This document shows, piece by piece, positions 7,060-13,491 of a stretch of 64,000 nt of DNA. Made by a program: the position numbers and the translations under genes. The DNA lies in assembly GCF_000226295.1 (NCBI RefSeq), contig NC_016024.1, forward strand, positions 1,099,501-1,163,500, written 5' to 3'. The stretch comes from Chloracidobacterium thermophilum B. Lineage in GTDB: Bacteria; Acidobacteriota; Blastocatellia; Chloracidobacteriales; Chloracidobacteriaceae. Positions within the stretch are counted from its first letter, which is position 1. Every line of letters begins with the position of its first letter. The notes under the pieces are model-generated. The model was not told the origin of the DNA. It did no database searches and worked only from the letters and a program-made list of their open reading frames with translations.

Positions 7060-7806
7060 ATGATGAATCACAAGCGACTTCTCATCCTGTCCTGTTCGCA
7101 GCGTAAGAGCCACAAGGAAGGTCTCTTGCCAGCGATTGAGCGCTATGATGGCCCATTGTTTCGCATTTTGCGGCGTTATCAGAAAACCCAGGACACCAGG
7201 AACAGGGAAGCAGAACCGAGTCTGAGTACCTATATCCTTTCAGCCGAGTTCGGACTGATTTCTGCCGAATACCCAATTCCATATTATGACTGTTGTATGA
7301 CGAGACACCGTGCCCAGATGCTTCATCCGGTCGTTATGGACAAGCTGAAGAATCTTCTCACTGGTGGTTGCCGTTTTCAGGAACTCTTCATCTGCCTGGG
7401 ACAAGCTTACTGGCCTGCCTTGGAAGGATGGGAGGCATTTGTTCGTCGGGATATGGCTGTCCACGTGGCCTGGGGTGCGATTGGAATGAGGCAGAGTCAG
7501 CTCTACGAATGGCTGTATGGCACACCTCCGTCTGCATCTGCTCCAAGCAAATCAGGGCAACCCAGTCTTCGTGGGATGGCTGTTGAACTCAGCCCACAGC
7601 AAATCTTTGAGATTGCACGTCAGGGACTACGAGGAAGCAGCAGAATGACAACTTTCTGTCACATGTGGTATATCCCGGTTGACGGCCAACGGGTTGCACC
7701 CAAATGGCTCGTCAGCCGGTTGACCGGCTTGCCAGTCAGCACCTTCAGAACAGATGATGCCCGACGACTTTTGGCCCAACTGGGGATTGAGGTCAGGCGC
7801 GCATGA
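7060..7806 (+). CDS. DUF6884-like protein, first gene of the cassette
   Basis: About 248 residues. The N-terminus is a hydrophobic strand followed by a Ser-Cys-Ser-Gln-Arg-Lys motif (RLLILSCSQRK), then ALFRI-like helix, LSAEFGLIS and IPYYD. This layout is typical of the small DUF6884-type family found beside tRNA-guanine-transglycosylase-like and phage genes; I assign it on pattern only. The downstream half (GLRGSSRMTTFCHMWY..) is unassigned. The ATG at 7060 is preferred because upstream in-frame sequence looks non-coding. Its stop overlaps the NurA start in an ATGA, indicating translational coupling. Confidence 0.6.
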   Translation: MMNHKRLLILSCSQRKSHKEGLLPAIERYDGPLFRILRRYQKTQDTRNREAEPSLSTYILSAEFGLISAEYPIPYYDCCMTRHRAQMLHPVVMDKLKNLLTGGCRFQELFICLGQAYWPALEGWEAFVRRDMAVHVAWGAIGMRQSQLYEWLYGTPPSASAPSKSGQPSLRGMAVELSPQQIFEIARQGLRGSSRMTTFCHMWYIPVDGQRVAPKWLVSRLTGLPVSTFRTDDARRLLAQLGIEVRRA

Positions 7807-9293
7807 AACCAGACCAGACTCAAGATCATCACCTGACTGAAAAGGGTGTTCAGGAAGAGATTCAGCGCCAGCCAAGCCTGATGACGAGGCTGGTTGAAAA
7901 TTCTCTGACAGTAGCGACGAGTCTGCGAGACAATTACTTCAAGAACACCGCCAGGTTCGTTGCCCATCTGCGTCAGGCTATGGATGAGGCAAACAAGGGA
8001 GAGCGACCAAACTCTCCGCTCAAGGTATTTTCAGTTGGAGAAGTTGACTGGTCTCAGTACCAAAATGAGGTGGTCACGTTCATTGATGGCGGGATAGGTC
8101 GCGTGCAGTTCTCCAGCCAGGTACCTATCCTGCTCCGGGTGGGGTCGTATTGTGTGCGCACTGGCGAGAGATGTCTGGCGAAGCGGGAGCAGTTCGGCTA
8201 CTACCCTGTGATTCTGGGCGATCTGGAAGGCGGCAGCAAAGAGCGAAAGGACTTTCCTGATATTGTTAGGATCACGGCTGAGCTGCTTGGCGGACTGTCG
8301 GCACTGGAGCGTACCCCTGACCTCTCGGTGCTGATGTTCCACGGCCCACTGGTTTATCTCATGGGGGGATACGCAGGTCACACACCTTTCACAGAAAAAG
8401 ACATCGATCTGTTCCTGCACCATTACGCACGCGATACCGCAACCGCCAGCCGGCTCAAAGATGAGTTCCTCCAAGAGGCATTTGTCAACATCTATCCACA
8501 GATGACAGGGAACCACAAAGAATGGAAAAGGCGTCGCCTGTTCGAGCCTCTGGCCTGGATGGCTTTTCTGTATCGGCGGTTGATACAGGAGGCGCGCAAG
8601 AGAAAGCCTGTTCCAATCATTGCGGGTGTTGTCGAGCGCGGTGACCTCCGTGAGTTCAGCGAGTGCATCCTGCTGGATCGAGTCTTTCTTGGCCTGCGTG
8701 AGAAGGGGAACGATGATTACTTCAACAAGATGTACGGACGATCTGATCTCGATTCGTCCAAGTCGCTTCTGGACAAGCTTGGCTATACCGATACCCTTCT
8801 CCTGGCGATGTTGCTCAGGCCTGGTGAGTACTCTGAACCCTGGAACATCAGCAAATACGATGGGCTTCGGAAGGGTGAAATCTCCCTTCCAGGCGAACCC
8901 GGTACCAGCATGGTGAATTTTGCGCCACTCAAACCGGGCCCCATTGGGTTCCCAAAGGTTCTCGGTTGCTATGTCCACGTTTCGGAAACAACTGAGCCGA
9001 TCCGTGTCGAAATCTTCGAGGAGCTTGGCCGTGATCAAATTGCTGAGGCTGCGCGTCGCGTGTACCTGTATTCGCGATTGTTGCCGGGCTACGGCTTTCC
9101 CGTCGGTCTGGATATTGCCGACAAGTTTGTACGTGTGCCGAACTGGCTGACCGACGCATATAGCAAGTTGATCCGGCATCACTTGGGGGTAAGCCTGCAA
9201 CAAGGCGAAATCAGCGATGCGGAAATGCGGCGTATCCTGATTCAGGCAATCTACATGACCCATCGGGACTGGCTCTTCCGTCCCTCCAGCTAA
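7803..9293 (+). CDS. nurA: NurA-like nuclease
   Basis: 496 residues. The first part contains VVTFIDGGIG, with Asp95 placed like the first metal-binding Asp of the NurA fold (RNase H-like, Mn2+-dependent 5'-3' exonuclease/endonuclease). A second acidic patch is in VLMFHGPLVYL. It is followed in the same direction by HerA, and NurA and HerA are well-known partners: HerA forms a hexameric translocase ring and NurA a dimeric nuclease that together resect DNA ends. It overlaps the preceding gene by 4 nt and ends 23 nt before herA. The protein is longer than many archaeal NurAs. Family assignment depends strongly on the HerA neighbour. Confidence 0.75.
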   Translation: MKPDQTQDHHLTEKGVQEEIQRQPSLMTRLVENSLTVATSLRDNYFKNTARFVAHLRQAMDEANKGERPNSPLKVFSVGEVDWSQYQNEVVTFIDGGIGRVQFSSQVPILLRVGSYCVRTGERCLAKREQFGYYPVILGDLEGGSKERKDFPDIVRITAELLGGLSALERTPDLSVLMFHGPLVYLMGGYAGHTPFTEKDIDLFLHHYARDTATASRLKDEFLQEAFVNIYPQMTGNHKEWKRRRLFEPLAWMAFLYRRLIQEARKRKPVPIIAGVVERGDLREFSECILLDRVFLGLREKGNDDYFNKMYGRSDLDSSKSLLDKLGYTDTLLLAMLLRPGEYSEPWNISKYDGLRKGEISLPGEPGTSMVNFAPLKPGPIGFPKVLGCYVHVSETTEPIRVEIFEELGRDQIAEAARRVYLYSRLLPGYGFPVGLDIADKFVRVPNWLTDAYSKLIRHHLGVSLQQGEISDAEMRRILIQAIYMTHRDWLFRPSS

Positions 9294-9316
9294 AACCAGC
9301 CAAGAAGGGGTAAGCC

Positions 9317-11119
9317 ATGACTGCTCCCGCAGGTTCACAACCGGGAAACGATCACTATGTGGGAACTCTGGTAGGCGAAAGCACCAGCCGTGAGTTTCGC
9401 CTGGCGGTGGCCCATGAGACCATTCGGGAACAAGACATTATTGCCGTGGATGCGCAGTTGCGCCGGCCGGGGGCGAGTGAGACGCCTGAAAAGATTCGCA
9501 TTTGGGCCAAAGTACAGCGTATCGAGCGGGTGAACCCTCTGTTTCCATCCGAAGCTGGCCACGAGCTAGCTGCCACTCGCACTGATCCCTTTGATACGGT
9601 GCTTTCTCTCAGCCGGGAGATGGTGACGGCGGTCTGTCAAGTCCTGGGCGCCGAACCGCTGGACGGTAACAGAGAAGGGAAGCTCGATCACTTGCGCTAT
9701 CCACCTCAACCGGCCTCCAGTGCCTACCGGCCGGAAGAGAAGGACATCGCCCGTGTCGTTTTGGGTGAACTCCAACAGAAACAACAGCGCGCCTTGGACA
9801 TCGCCACGCTCTCCAACCGCCCTGAAGTGGATGTCAAGGTAGATGGCCACGCCATTGTTACCCGCCATCTGGCTATCCTGGCGATGACAGGTGCCGGCAA
9901 GAGCTGGACAGCCCGGCGGATCATTGAGGAGTTAGCGAAGAAGAACTATCCCATTGTGATCTTCGATCCGCATGGGGACTATACAGGACTTGCTGATGTG
10001 CCAGAGCTGCGAGAACGTGTCACGCGCTACTATGCTCGTTTCCCGATATTTGAGGAAGATGGCGAAACCATAGCGGAGATCGTCAGTACATTGGGATATT
10101 TATTGACTGATACGATGCGTGCCCGCTTCGACGATGTCTTTCGTGCTGCAAAGAGTTTCATTGTGGATGATGAGAAAGAAATGCAGGAACGGACGCAGTG
10201 GTTGGCTGAAACACTCAAGAACCATGAGTTGCTTACCAATGGGATCAAACCAGATTTATGGCTTCTTGCGATGTTGGCTGAAGCTGGCGAGACGGTTCTG
10301 CGCAGCGAGGACACAACTGGCAAGCAGAAACTGACGGACTGGGGTTGGCCCAAGTTTATGGGAGGGTACTCCAAAACTGACTGCCGGACACTGGAAGGCA
10401 TCAAGAAGCGCTCACGCCGGGCGGCGAAAGTACTCCACCGCATGGAGCTTACCAACCAGAAGATCGCTCGCAGCGCCCAACCGATCCCGACGGATCGAAA
10501 GCAACTGGTAAACTACGGGAAAATCAGTGTGGTTGCATTGGCAGGTTATACCAGCGATTTCCAGGCAACCATCTACAGCATCATCGCTGATGACCTCTTC
10601 GAAGCCCGTGTCAGTGGCGAAAAAGCCCGTGTCAGTGGCGAAGAAGCCCGTGTCAGTGGCGAACTGAAACTGCCGGTGCTTCTTCTGCTGGAAGAAGCAC
10701 ATAATTTCGCTCCTGCACGGGCCATGACACCCGCTGAACTGCGTGCGATTAGCATCACCAAACAGATTGCCCAGGAAGGCCGCAAGTTCGGCGTCGGATT
10801 GATTCTCATCAGCCAGCGTCCCTCGCGCCTCGATGAGACAACCCTATCCCAGTGCAATTCCTACATCATCATGCGCATGGTCAATCCAGCCGACCAGAAG
10901 TTTGTGCGGAACGTTGTGGAAACACTGGCCGAAGATGAAGCAAAGCTGCTTCCCGATCTGGATGTTGGGGAAGCGATTCTGTCTGGCCAGTTGATAAATT
11001 TCCCCGTCCTGGTGCGGATCAAAAAGCCGGAATCGCAGGGTGAGCGTGAAGAAAAGGATGCGTTTGAGGCACTTGAGGAAGCCCACAGAGAAGCTCAGAA
11101 CGCTGTGGGAAGACCATAG
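9317..11119 (+). CDS. herA: HerA-like hexameric DNA translocase ATPase
   Basis: 600 residues. An N-terminal beta-barrel (HAS-barrel-like, residues about 10-110) precedes a HerA/DUF87 ATPase. Walker A is MTGAGKSWT (Lys195), IFDPHGDY follows, Walker B is VLLLLEEAHN, and a late arginine-rich motif ISQRPSRLDE fits the HerA/FtsK-type sensor region. HerA pumps DNA and, with NurA, processes ends; in bacteria it also appears in anti-phage modules. A 7-residue unit is repeated three times between the barrel-side strand and Walker B. It starts with ATG after AAGGGG and is 5 nt upstream of the DpdA-like gene. Confidence 0.9.
   Translation: MTAPAGSQPGNDHYVGTLVGESTSREFRLAVAHETIREQDIIAVDAQLRRPGASETPEKIRIWAKVQRIERVNPLFPSEAGHELAATRTDPFDTVLSLSREMVTAVCQVLGAEPLDGNREGKLDHLRYPPQPASSAYRPEEKDIARVVLGELQQKQQRALDIATLSNRPEVDVKVDGHAIVTRHLAILAMTGAGKSWTARRIIEELAKKNYPIVIFDPHGDYTGLADVPELRERVTRYYARFPIFEEDGETIAEIVSTLGYLLTDTMRARFDDVFRAAKSFIVDDEKEMQERTQWLAETLKNHELLTNGIKPDLWLLAMLAEAGETVLRSEDTTGKQKLTDWGWPKFMGGYSKTDCRTLEGIKKRSRRAAKVLHRMELTNQKIARSAQPIPTDRKQLVNYGKISVVALAGYTSDFQATIYSIIADDLFEARVSGEKARVSGEEARVSGELKLPVLLLLEEAHNFAPARAMTPAELRAISITKQIAQEGRKFGVGLILISQRPSRLDETTLSQCNSYIIMRMVNPADQKFVRNVVETLAEDEAKLLPDLDVGEAILSGQLINFPVLVRIKKPESQGEREEKDAFEALEEAHREAQNAVGRP
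10604..10666 (+). repeat. in-frame 21-bp tandem repeat inside herA
   Basis: Three near-identical copies of a 21-bp unit (GCCCGTGTCAGTGGCGAA plus three bases) encode ARVSGE-K/E three times (about residues 430-450). The repeat lies just before the Walker B strand. The unit length is a multiple of three, so expansion or contraction would keep the reading frame. Confidence 0.85.
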
Positions 11120-11124
11120 CCACA

Positions 11125-12204
11125 ATGGAAATCGTTGCTGGCTTGAGCCTCAAAAACCTGAAGCCCCGTGTATGGGACCCGGATTCGCCTTACTATTTAC
11201 CCGATCTGAAAGCGGTCATGGTTTCCTATGCTGACTTCGCCAGTAGCCCGGCGCGTCGTCAGGCTGCCATGCGCCACGGATTGCGCGCCTTCCTGGGGGT
11301 GCCTCCGGGGGTGATGATCTATTTGGACAATGGTTCCTTCCAGCAGTTGACAAAGGGAGGAAGCACCTCGCGCGAGGACTACGAGGAATTTGTTGAACAG
11401 GCAAAACCCAATTGGCACGCCATTCCACAGGATTTTGTCCCCACACCTTTTATGACGGATGCGGAGCAGCTCAACTGCTTTCATCAGACGATGGAGATAA
11501 ATCGAGAGTATCGGCACGATGGATATGTACCGGTCATCCACATTAGCCGCTACCTGTCGGACTACTTGAAAGCATTTCTTACAGACAAGCACTTGTGCCG
11601 GAAAGGGAAAGTCGCTTTGGGAGGAATTGTTCCTAACCTGCTGCGTGCGCCGAAGGCCATACCGTATGCCAATGTGCTGGATAGTCTTCATCGGGTACGT
11701 CACCAATTGGGCAATTGGCAACTGCATGTTTTTGGCTTGGGAGGGACGGCAACCATGCACTTGGCTATCCTTTTGGGAGTGGATTCGGCTGATTCAGCCG
11801 GCTGGCGAAATCGGGCAGCACGTGGAATCATTCAGTTGCCCGGACGTGGGGATCGCTTGGTAGCCAATCTCGGAAAATGGCGCGGACGAGAACCAAATGC
11901 TGAAGAATGGGCTATGCTGGCAAAATGCCCCTGCCCAGCCTGTCAAGCTGACGGCCTGGAGGGTTTGAAAGCCAACGGGCTAAAAGGTTTTTGCCATCGG
12001 GCTACCCACAACCTCTGGGTATTACTCACCGAGGTCAAAGAAGTTGAGCTGCGCCTGTCTGACGGAACGTATCGAGACTGGTATCAGGGGCATCTTGATA
12101 ACTCGACCTATCGCCCATTGGTCGAGTACGTTCTCAGGTTGTGCGCGGTAAAGATGACTTCCAAACCTGCCAGGAAGATGCAGAGCGACTTTGAGAAGCG
12201 ATAG
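11125..12204 (+). CDS. DpdA-like tRNA-guanine-transglycosylase-fold protein
   Basis: 359 residues of the TGT superfamily. Visible features are YLDNGSFQQL, placed like the D-x-G-x-x-Q substrate-binding motif; a central GLGG and GVDSADS (Asp220/Asp223), matching the catalytic-Asp segment; and a complete TGT zinc site Cys268-Pro-Cys270-Pro-Ala-Cys273 plus His295. TGTs exchange guanine for 7-deazaguanines in tRNA; DpdA relatives do this in DNA. The association with a DUF6884-like gene, NurA and HerA, rather than tRNA-modification genes, favours a DNA-directed DpdA role, but no preQ0 genes are in view. Last gene of the cassette. Confidence 0.75.
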   Translation: MEIVAGLSLKNLKPRVWDPDSPYYLPDLKAVMVSYADFASSPARRQAAMRHGLRAFLGVPPGVMIYLDNGSFQQLTKGGSTSREDYEEFVEQAKPNWHAIPQDFVPTPFMTDAEQLNCFHQTMEINREYRHDGYVPVIHISRYLSDYLKAFLTDKHLCRKGKVALGGIVPNLLRAPKAIPYANVLDSLHRVRHQLGNWQLHVFGLGGTATMHLAILLGVDSADSAGWRNRAARGIIQLPGRGDRLVANLGKWRGREPNAEEWAMLAKCPCPACQADGLEGLKANGLKGFCHRATHNLWVLLTEVKEVELRLSDGTYRDWYQGHLDNSTYRPLVEYVLRLCAVKMTSKPARKMQSDFEKR

Positions 12205-12326: not shown

Positions 12327-12606
12327 GAGTAGGGCACTTCAGAAACCTGCAAACACGAGCAGTCACCTCGGCTGTTTTTCAGCCGGCCTCAGTGCAACGT
12401 TCTGCCCAAAACTCCATACAAGGTGCCGTGCTTCCGGCCCAAAGCTGGCTGCTTCCGGTTCGACGCCAAAAACTTTTGGCCGCAGCCCGGGTCAGATGTA
12501 GGTTGATGTCAGGCGTCGCACAAACGCCACGTCTCGCGTCGTAACGTTGCAAAGCGTTCTTCCCCACACGCTCAAGACGCATAGCCTTCCCTGTGGAGGA
12601 TGCTGC

Positions 12607-13491
12607 ATGTCGGCACGTCGCGTTGTTGCCATCTATGGTAAAGGCGGAAGCGGAAAGTCTTTCATCACCTCGAATCTCAGCTACTACCTGGCGAGCAAGT
12701 CGCACCGGGTGTTGCAGATTGGCTGCGACCCCAAACACGATTCCACGGCGCTGCTGTTTGGCGGCAAGTCGCTCCCGACCCTGCTTGAAGCCTGGGCGCT
12801 GCGGCAGGAAGCCAAAGCTGCCAACCCCGTACCGCCCATCAGTGAAGTCGTCTTCAAACGCCATGGCGTCTTTGCCATGGAACTCGGCGGCCCCGAAGTC
12901 GGGCGCGGCTGCGGGGGACGGGGCATCACCCTCAGTTTCGATCTGCTGTCACAGATGGGCTTCGCCGATTGGGAGTTCGACTACATCATCTATGACTTCC
13001 TGGGCGATGTCGTGTGCGGCGGGTTTGGCACTCCCATTGCCAAGTCCATGGTGCGGGACATCATTCTCGTCGGCGGCAATGACCATCAGGCACTCTATGT
13101 CGTCAACAACCTGTGTGGCGCCGTGCGCTACTTCGCCGAACAGGGCGGAACGACGCGCGTCCTGGGGATGATCATCAACCGGGATGACGGCTCCGGCTGG
13201 GGTGAGCGGTACGCCCAGGAAGCCGGCATTGACATCATCACCCGGATTCCCCTTTCAGACGAAATCCGTAACCGCAGCATGGCCTTTCAACTGATTGCCG
13301 ATGACCCCCGGCACCGTGGTTACTTCGAGGACATCGAGTGGGCCATTCTGCACGGCACGCCAAAACTGCCCAAAGCCGTGGACTTCGAGGCTTTTTCCAG
13401 CGACATCATGCGTACGCGCAACCTCGGCGGACTGGACCCGGCCCTGGAAGAAGACCTCATGCCCTCCCAGTTGGAATGCATGGTGATCTAG
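12607..13491 (+). CDS. bchX: chlorophyllide a reductase iron-protein subunit BchX
   Basis: 294 residues of the NifH/ParA-type ATPase fold. The P-loop is IYGKGGSGKS and a nucleotide-specificity segment reads IGCDPKHDSTALLFGG. The two cluster ligands of the bridging 4Fe-4S cluster are Cys102 (GRGCGGRG) and Cys137 (VVCGGFG). The segments MELGGPEVGRGCGG and FLGDVVCGG are BchX-like rather than BchL-like. BchX passes electrons, with ATP hydrolysis, to BchY-BchZ, which reduce chlorophyllide a on the bacteriochlorophyll route. No bchY or bchZ is in the window. The start is fixed by GGAGG 5 nt upstream of ATG at 12607. Confidence 0.93.
   Translation: MSARRVVAIYGKGGSGKSFITSNLSYYLASKSHRVLQIGCDPKHDSTALLFGGKSLPTLLEAWALRQEAKAANPVPPISEVVFKRHGVFAMELGGPEVGRGCGGRGITLSFDLLSQMGFADWEFDYIIYDFLGDVVCGGFGTPIAKSMVRDIILVGGNDHQALYVVNNLCGAVRYFAEQGGTTRVLGMIINRDDGSGWGERYAQEAGIDIITRIPLSDEIRNRSMAFQLIADDPRHRGYFEDIEWAILHGTPKLPKAVDFEAFSSDIMRTRNLGGLDPALEEDLMPSQLECMVI

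Follow-up and report, generated by a model that had tools for sequence, protein, structure and literature searches.

The 64,000-nucleotide window analyzed here (C1:1099501-1163500 of the 3.70-Mb, two-contig genome of Chloracidobacterium thermophilum B, contig NC_016024.1) carries at positions 7060 to 12204 a four-gene cassette encoding a DUF6884 protein, a NurA-family nuclease, a HerA translocase ATPase and a guanine transglycosylase of the TGT family. With moderate probability, this cassette is a compact restriction-modification-like system directed against foreign DNA, in which a 7-deazaguanine marks the cell's own DNA and HerA-NurA degrades DNA that lacks the mark. In such a system, the TGT would replace guanines of the host DNA by a 7-deazaguanine derived from preQ0, and the DUF6884 protein, a DpdC-like protein with a base pocket, would help to choose the site or to convert the inserted base. 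The translocating HerA ring would feed unmarked DNA ends to NurA, which would then degrade both strands of the unmarked DNA. HerA might also, as an ATPase, stand in for DpdB. We infer that the cassette is a deazaguanine restriction-modification-like system with HerA-NurA as its effector and is kin to the known deazaguanine systems. DNA is thus the presumed substrate, preQ0 or a derivative the presumed base, and phages or plasmids the presumed target of a system whose mark is protective. TGT and DUF6884 probably fill the modification slot because DUF6884 is the family of DpdC, transporters accompany some of the cassettes, and methylase or type I restriction genes lie beside remote NurA-HerA pairs. 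That the mark would protect rather than provoke is likewise suggested by the exchange with methylases and by the transporters.

The four gene identities had been proposed in a preliminary description of this DNA, and Pfam matches bear them out for all four proteins, with NurA, HerA and TGT above the family cut-offs and DUF6884 just below. Based on open reading frames (ORFs) and Pfam, the genes are arranged on the plus strand in the order DUF6884, NurA, HerA and TGT as a single tight operon (Table 1), with an overlap of 4 nt between DUF6884 and NurA and gaps of 23 nt between NurA and HerA and 5 nt between HerA and TGT. For the DUF6884 gene, the ATG at 7063 is a likelier start than the preceding one at 7060, because the congener G157 keeps an ATG only at 7063 (genomes and loci are designated by G and L numbers). 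NurA matches PF09376 (E = 5.8e-11, 42.8 bits against a cut-off of 21), and the motifs FxDGG, HGxL and GLDIxDK are common to the NurAs of the cassettes and the methylase-linked NurAs described below; its profile matched no solved structure by sequence. HerA matches DUF87 (E = 6e-27, 95.6 bits) and HerA_C (38.9 bits), both above the cut-offs, as well as the PADLOC HerA model (E = 1.3e-61). The HerA-NurA complex of T. kodakarensis degrades both strands of double-stranded DNA whatever the DNA end, and its authors suggest a role in antiviral defence (PMC12977600). Complexes of HerA with a nuclease are also described as protecting bacteria (PMC11291478).

The DUF6884 protein provides the connection to DpdC. 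What the preliminary description had called a DUF6884-type protein is indeed one, with the correction that DUF6884 is the family of DpdC. A preprint gives it as the Pfam domain that dpdC carries in these islands (PMC11888242), and PMC11701544, which names the CxxxK and LSAxxG motifs, relates it to YaaA. In PMC12839542, DpdC is assigned instead to the related DUF328/PF03883. The window protein remains below the threshold of PF21818 (E = 3e-6; 27.8 bits, with the cut-off at 30), and its homologues at L002 (37.6 bits) and L019 (34.8 bits) exceed it. One PADLOC DpdC model matches 12 of the 15 cassette DUF6884 proteins, weakly (E up to 0.1; best of any 9e-5), and the PADLOC label PDC-M57A matches all 15; no explanation of this label was found in the open-access literature searched. 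In an Enterobacter dpd island, the protein adjoining dpdA (L088:14100-14951) was taken as DpdC because of where it lies and because it weakly matches DUF6884 (E = 6.2e-5), and it aligns weakly with the cassette DUF6884 profile (hhalign E = 1.1e-4, probability 56). These profile matches lend weak support to placing the DUF6884 family with DpdC. In addition, G010 encodes a 583-residue fusion of DUF6884 to DpdA, whose DpdA part scores 322 bits against the family cut-off of 200 and whose DUF6884 part is clearly homologous to that of the cassette (hhalign E = 4e-26). The predicted model of the window DUF6884 (predicted local distance difference test score, pLDDT, 87.6) resembles YaaA 5caj (Z 9.7, root-mean-square deviation 3.5, 139 aligned residues) and AF0587 2q07 (Z 9.3), which stand above all other matches. 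A Foldseek search returned no match with E < 0.001, with 2q07 and 5caj in the top rows alone standing out, and the DUF6884 profile matched no solved structure by sequence. The C-terminal third of the protein (approximately residues 160-248) is barely covered by these tests.

The function of the TGT and DUF6884 pair is further suggested by the genes found in its place elsewhere. Four remote NurA-HerA pairs (G050, G745, G857 and G1178), all without TGT or DUF6884, adjoin modification or restriction genes. Their identity to the window proteins is 25-27% for NurA and 32-42% for HerA, in one HerA over 218 residues only. In G745 and G857, the genes are ordered C5-cytosine methylase-NurA-HerA-Vsr, and in G050 a C5-methylase lies 531 nt beyond NurA-HerA. 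In G1178, the type I genes HsdS and HsdR and an HNH gene precede NurA-HerA. Judging by gene arrangement, the DNA methyltransferase in the three methylase cases is the putative counterpart of the TGT/DUF6884 pair. Operons of the methylase-NurA-HerA-Vsr type (L115 4669-10495, L116 723-6461) are themselves restriction-modification-like, with related NurA and HerA in the same order; they differ from the cassette in that DUF6884 and TGT give way to a C5-cytosine methylase and Vsr. No name for this arrangement was found in the open-access literature searched.

Transporter genes upstream of some cassettes point to the supply of a deazaguanine precursor. A Vut_1 transporter is encoded upstream of DUF6884 in at least six (L016, L017, L019, L035, L112 and L113) of 15 cassettes, namely that of the window, L011, L015 to L021, L023, L025, L035, L085, L112 and L113. 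Six is a lower bound, as the Pfam scan covered only part of the upstream genes. The contigs of L015 and L021 begin close upstream of the cassette; at its very start, that of L015 matches the L112 transporter over 28 residues, which was left out of the count. The transporters of L016, L017, L019 and L035 match E. coli YhhQ, annotated as a queuosine precursor transporter, with 26-29% identity (E of about 1e-12). In five of the six cases, the transporter gene overlaps the next gene or lies within 63 nt of it, and in L019 a distance of 841 nt, occupied by small ORFs, separates the two. Strong QueC matches were found in 13 of the 15 cassette genomes searched, including that of the window. The two remaining genomes, G297 and G299 (E = 1.4e-4 only), host L016 and L019, both of which have a YhhQ-like transporter. 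This coincidence is suggestive only, because QueC is common and G297 and G299 are draft metagenome-assembled genomes.

These transporters also bear on a type IV-like function, in which TGT and DUF6884 would detect or remove 7-deazaguanines in modified phage DNA, HerA-NurA would degrade that DNA and the host would remain unmarked. Phages do carry 7-deazaguanines in their DNA (PMC6884629), and a DUF6884 member is among the interactors of abasic and RNA-base lesions and was modelled flipping a base (PMC11701544). Such a function is nevertheless unlikely. The presence of precursor-type transporters upstream in some loci argues that deazaguanine is used, not removed, and three of the four distant NurA-HerA pairs adjoin DNA methyltransferases, which is a self-marking arrangement.

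The TGT itself matches PF01702 (E = 2.6e-7, 30.5 bits against a cut-off of 26.3). Its residues D68 and D223 are presumed to be catalytic and C268, C270, C273 and H295 to bind zinc, by analogy with Tgt (Table 1). Its loop reads GGIVP, similar to GGVVP in ArcTGT and GGMVP in DpdA, while the bacterial Tgt has GGLAVGE. Both ArcTGT and DpdA use preQ0, and the GGxVP loop matters for this use. The insert that follows DSGG in canonical Tgt is missing from the window TGT and from ArcTGT. The TGT profile matches the solved structures of DpdA (7ui4, E = 1.6e-5) and ArcTGT (1iq8, E = 9e-10), and in hhalign comparisons it matches the DpdA of a dpd island with an E of 2e-6 and a haloarchaeal DUF6884-linked TGT with an E of 1.8e-8, compared with 0.09 for E. 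coli Tgt. In a phylogenetic tree, the TGT groups with DpdA sequences and not with canonical Tgt (97/88); the tree is weak evidence, its DpdA branches being very long and flagged by the program. The score against the NCBIfam DpdA family NF041059 is 24.6 bits, far below the cut-off of 200. Thus, of the earlier designation "DpdA-like TGT", the TGT identity stands and the likeness to DpdA is reduced to a distant relationship. Because DpdB is absent from the genome and the TGT falls so far below the DpdA cut-off, the cassette is, as judged from its sequences, not a canonical Dpd system.

Several observations weigh against a restriction-modification-like function. The archaeosine tRNA TGT family gives the best score for the window TGT (37.4 bits, compared with 24.6 for DpdA), and the best fold match is ArcTGT 1iq8 rather than DpdA. 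DpdB (DndB-like, PF14072), which belongs to the modification machinery of Dpd, is absent from the cassette operon and had no match in G000 (the window genome), G157 and G267; with five further genomes, 8 of the 15 cassette genomes lack a match, and the remaining seven have a DndB-family gene somewhere, perhaps belonging to other systems. No transporter was seen in 9 of the 15 cassettes, including that of the window, and L112 and L113 encode shorter transporters that match Vut_1 less well and do not clearly match YhhQ. The presence of QueC is weak evidence because the gene is near-universal, occurring in 12 of 14 control genomes and in the congener G096, which has no cassette. The remote pairs are only 25-27% identical to the window in NurA, the scanned genes of the G1178 locus showed no methylase subunit, and another NurA-HerA pair, encountered by different means (L013), adjoins DruA. 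Moreover, viral contigs yielded no relative, and phage records none of the TGT or DUF6884.

The first of these observations would fit a TGT that acts on tRNA and has no more than its operon in common with a defence pair of HerA and NurA. However, the genome already possesses a separate canonical Tgt (535 bits), the gene order of the cassette is kept across phyla, and the fusion of DUF6884 to DpdA exists, which makes a tRNA substrate improbable. The earlier lead towards 7-deazaguanine has held up. The gene partners of this TGT are those of DNA systems, and DNA is its presumed substrate.

The conservation of the cassette was examined by scanning genome_contigs (84,980 species) with sequence patterns. 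A scan with the single TGT sequence gave no match. With a three-sequence TGT alignment as query, 23 loci were returned, which are no census since the scan patterns are short peptides; 21 have a full-length TGT alignment, L036 and L037 being TGT fragments that were left out. L020, L015 and L021 are the same loci as L012, L110 and L111, respectively. HerA or Rad50 is encoded within two genes upstream of the TGT in 20 of the 21 loci, as the immediate neighbour in 15 and with one gene intervening in 5. DUF6884 was detected by ORF clustering, tblastn or Pfam in all 17 loci long enough to judge. Scattering of these genes in relatives, which the preliminary description had raised as a possibility, is therefore not the pattern found. 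The order DUF6884-NurA-HerA-TGT is present in ten loci (L015-L021, L023, L025 and L035), with a divergent DUF6884 of 28% identity in L021, and is kept across phyla. A second arrangement, DUF6884-HerA-(protein of about 540 residues)-TGT, occurs in five cyanobacteria (L028, L030, L032-L034). Its additional protein is weakly NurA-like in L033 (E = 6e-4, 19.8 of 21 bits) and has no match in L028, and in both it aligns poorly with the cassette NurA. In a third variant, Mre11-Rad50 is upstream of the TGT (L024); a plasmid of Aulosira laxa NIES-50 carries this variant in complete form, with a HerA-like gene whose DUF87 match is below threshold. At contig edges, Rad50-TGT is found in L026 and L027 and HerA-TGT in L029 and L031. 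The sole exception among the 21 is L022, a DUF6884-TGT locus with a broken frame and without HerA, Rad50 or NurA.

To avoid ascertainment by TGT, a search with the NurA profile alone was also made. NurA matches of any kind were found in 5 of 297 genomes of the cassette's own phylum and in 1 of 339, 8 of 350 and 2 of 346 genomes of the phyla of L018, L019 and L035. Full-length matches (≥890 bits) numbered 11 (G000, G157, G267, G282, G298, G299, G738, G660, G874, G842 and G308). Complete four-gene cassettes missed by the TGT search were thereby recovered in G874 and G842, and G282 has DUF6884-NurA-HerA on a contig that ends just after HerA. In G967, no more than portions of DUF6884 and NurA remain. 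Among plasmids, NurA was unmatched, and the TGT had one close relative and four haloarchaeal ones.

This distribution also bears on a function in DNA repair or end resection, as proposed for the archaeal Mre11-Rad50-HerA-NurA genes, in which damaged bases would be the substrate of TGT and DUF6884. The variant with Mre11- and Rad50-like genes would suit such a unit, as would the lesion binding of DUF6884 (PMC11701544). Little credence is given to it, because NurA is patchily distributed, and more so when only full-length matches are considered, the congener G096 lacks the cassette, and the remote relatives adjoin restriction or methylase genes. Abortive infection, in which HerA and the nuclease degrade all DNA as DUF4297-HerA does and the TGT mark is only a trigger or brake, is improbable: although DUF4297-HerA degrades host and phage DNA (PMC11291478) and the window HerA scores on PADLOC defence HerA models, no known trigger domain was found by Pfam in the four proteins, and a purely abortive system would not need modification genes.

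Taken as a restriction-modification-like system, the cassette shares features with several known systems. The Salmonella-type Dpd system (DpdA-K) likewise possesses a TGT paralogue and a DUF6884/DUF328-type protein (PMC11888242 and dpd islands), a YhhQ-type transporter beside some loci, nuclease and ATPase partners and a location on mobile islands. In contrast, the cassette operon lacks DpdB and DpdD-K, its effectors are HerA-NurA, and its TGT lies far below the DpdA cut-off. BREX-Related Capture (BRC) combines a HerA/FtsK translocase with a TGT and a proposed deazaguanine self-mark, but it also contains PglZ, DUF6079, a STAND NTPase, DUF4007 and GNAT and, according to that source, no homologue of DpdB or DpdC (PMC12839542), whereas NurA and a DpdC-like protein are present in the cassette. 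HerA and TGT are the only cassette proteins that are also BRC components; Pfam found none of PglZ, DUF6079, STAND NTPase and DUF4007 among the four cassette proteins, and the main text of PMC12839542 does not mention NurA. DUF4297-HerA (PMC11291478) and SIR2-HerA similarly couple a HerA ring to an effector enzyme but use a different nuclease and have no base-modification genes. The archaeal Mre11-Rad50-HerA-NurA cluster shares the HerA-NurA pair, and the third cassette variant adds Mre11-, Rad50- and HerA-like genes, the last with a sub-threshold Pfam match; unlike this cluster, the cassette is bacterial and patchily spread. To our knowledge, the archaeal cluster has no TGT or DUF6884. As the preliminary description had supposed, no description of the set DUF6884-NurA-HerA-TGT was found within the open-access literature searched; an earlier account in Dpd papers beyond it is possible.

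More tentatively, TGT and DUF6884 may constitute a portable base-exchange module that replaces the methyltransferase in unrelated DNA-degrading engines. These engines would include HerA-NurA, HerA-Mre11-Rad50, a UvrD helicase with a PD-(D/E)XK nuclease, and haloarchaeal sets of ATPase, helicase and phospholipase D (PLD) proteins. In the HerA-NurA form, the bulky base would be a dense self-mark that stops or excludes the end-degrading motor, so that DNA would be read during translocation and not at a recognition site.

If the restriction-modification-like function is correct, 7-deazaguanine marking of DNA is not confined to phages and Dpd islands but extends to a compact operon, complete in itself, in Acidobacteriota, Chloroflexota, Cyanobacteria and others. 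Bacterial HerA-NurA would acquire a clear task, the degradation of non-self DNA, and the question of how a processive translocase-nuclease spares self DNA would become testable. DUF6884, a family named for its unknown function, gains a testable role beside a base-exchange enzyme, and the four-gene cassette is small enough for transfer into a laboratory host.

The composition of the cassette and its closest relative suggest horizontal transfer. Its GC content is 0.541, compared with 0.604 for the window, a value as low being found in 2 of 236 segments of the cassette's length, and GC at third codon positions is 0.54-0.62, compared with 0.71-0.75 in four neighbour genes. The lower GC reported in the preliminary description is thus confirmed. 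The nearest sequence to the window TGT bears the label Chloroflexi (64% identity), compared with 56-57% for those labelled Acidobacteria. Together with the low GC, the patchy occurrence and the copy on a plasmid, this nearest relative fits a conserved mobile operon and the horizontal transfer proposed earlier. Codon comparison with G157 gave ratios of nonsynonymous to synonymous substitution (dN/dS) of about 0.29 (DUF6884), 0.39 (NurA), 0.13 (HerA) and 0.15 (TGT), all below 1, those of NurA and TGT resting on only 9 and 3 nucleotide differences. TGT and NurA of the cassette kind are without a match in the congener G096. The two flanks of the window are about 135 kb apart in that genome, placing the cassette at a synteny breakpoint, while the remnant-like left flank of the preliminary description was not confirmed; a clean empty site in G096 was for this reason rejected, and the insertion boundary cannot be drawn.

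Table 1. Genes and conserved motifs of the cassette (positions in the window)
Feature	Position	Strand	Basis
DUF6884 protein (DpdC-like, YaaA-like fold), 248 aa	7060..7806	+	Pfam PF21818, homologues, model
DUF6884 motif CxxxK (CSQRK)	7093..7107	+	C12 and K16 invariant in 15 homologues
DUF6884 motif LSAxxG (LSAEFG)	7237..7254	+	S61 and G65 invariant in 15 homologues
NurA-family nuclease, 496 aa	7803..9293	+	Pfam PF09376 and shared motifs
HerA translocase ATPase, 600 aa	9317..11119	+	Pfam DUF87, PADLOC HerA
HerA Walker A (MTGAGKS)	9884..9904	+	Invariant in 10 homologues
TGT / DpdA-like guanine transglycosylase, 359 aa	11125..12204	+	Pfam PF01702, profile matches
TGT D68, aligned with the DSGG aspartate of Tgt	11326..11328	+	Invariant in 22 homologues
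TGT D223, aligned with the nucleophile aspartate of Tgt	11791..11793	+	Invariant in 22 homologues
TGT putative zinc site C268, C270, C273, H295	11926..12009	+	Invariant in 22 homologues

Further observations were made at related loci. Haloarchaeal plasmids (L003-L006, L091 and L092) carry TGT genes with an adjacent DUF6884 domain, identified by Pfam in L003 (below threshold) and L091 and by tblastn in L092, together with BrxC/D-like or GHKL ATPases. Some of these plasmids have preQ0 genes or a transporter, and L091 also has a DEAD helicase and a PLD protein upstream. The "ATP-binding protein" beside haloarchaeal DUF6884-TGT was considered as a HerA and rejected, since it is a GHKL ATPase. In G010, genes for a UvrD-like helicase and a PD-(D/E)XK nuclease come after the DUF6884-DpdA fusion (L070 7376-12647), a second kind of DNA-end-processing machinery found with the putative base-exchange module. 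At L013 8973-14855 (G086), a broken TGT fragment lies beside DruA-NurA-HerA, a Druantia protein with a different NurA-HerA pair. A DUF366 gene is found upstream of the cassette in L015 (3-671) and L085 (1972-2547), the two being 73% identical, and the matches listed for DUF366 included no useful literature title. Within the Mre11-Rad50 variant, sigma-70-like and IrrE-peptidase genes (L002 2575-4690) form a possible regulatory pair. The ORF c21 of this variant (L002:4725-5783) was tried as a NurA-like protein and rejected, the profile comparison giving an E of 0.1 and Pfam no match. At L023 7580-8395, an HNH domain and a TRADD-like N-terminal domain are in frame with the start of HerA, and the HerA frame is seemingly split.

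In the window itself, HerA contains three in-frame 21-nt repeats of the ARVSGE type (10601-10663), and the congener HerA is 11 residues shorter overall. A chlorophyllide-reductase-like gene, read by eye, adjoins the cassette at 12547-13491.

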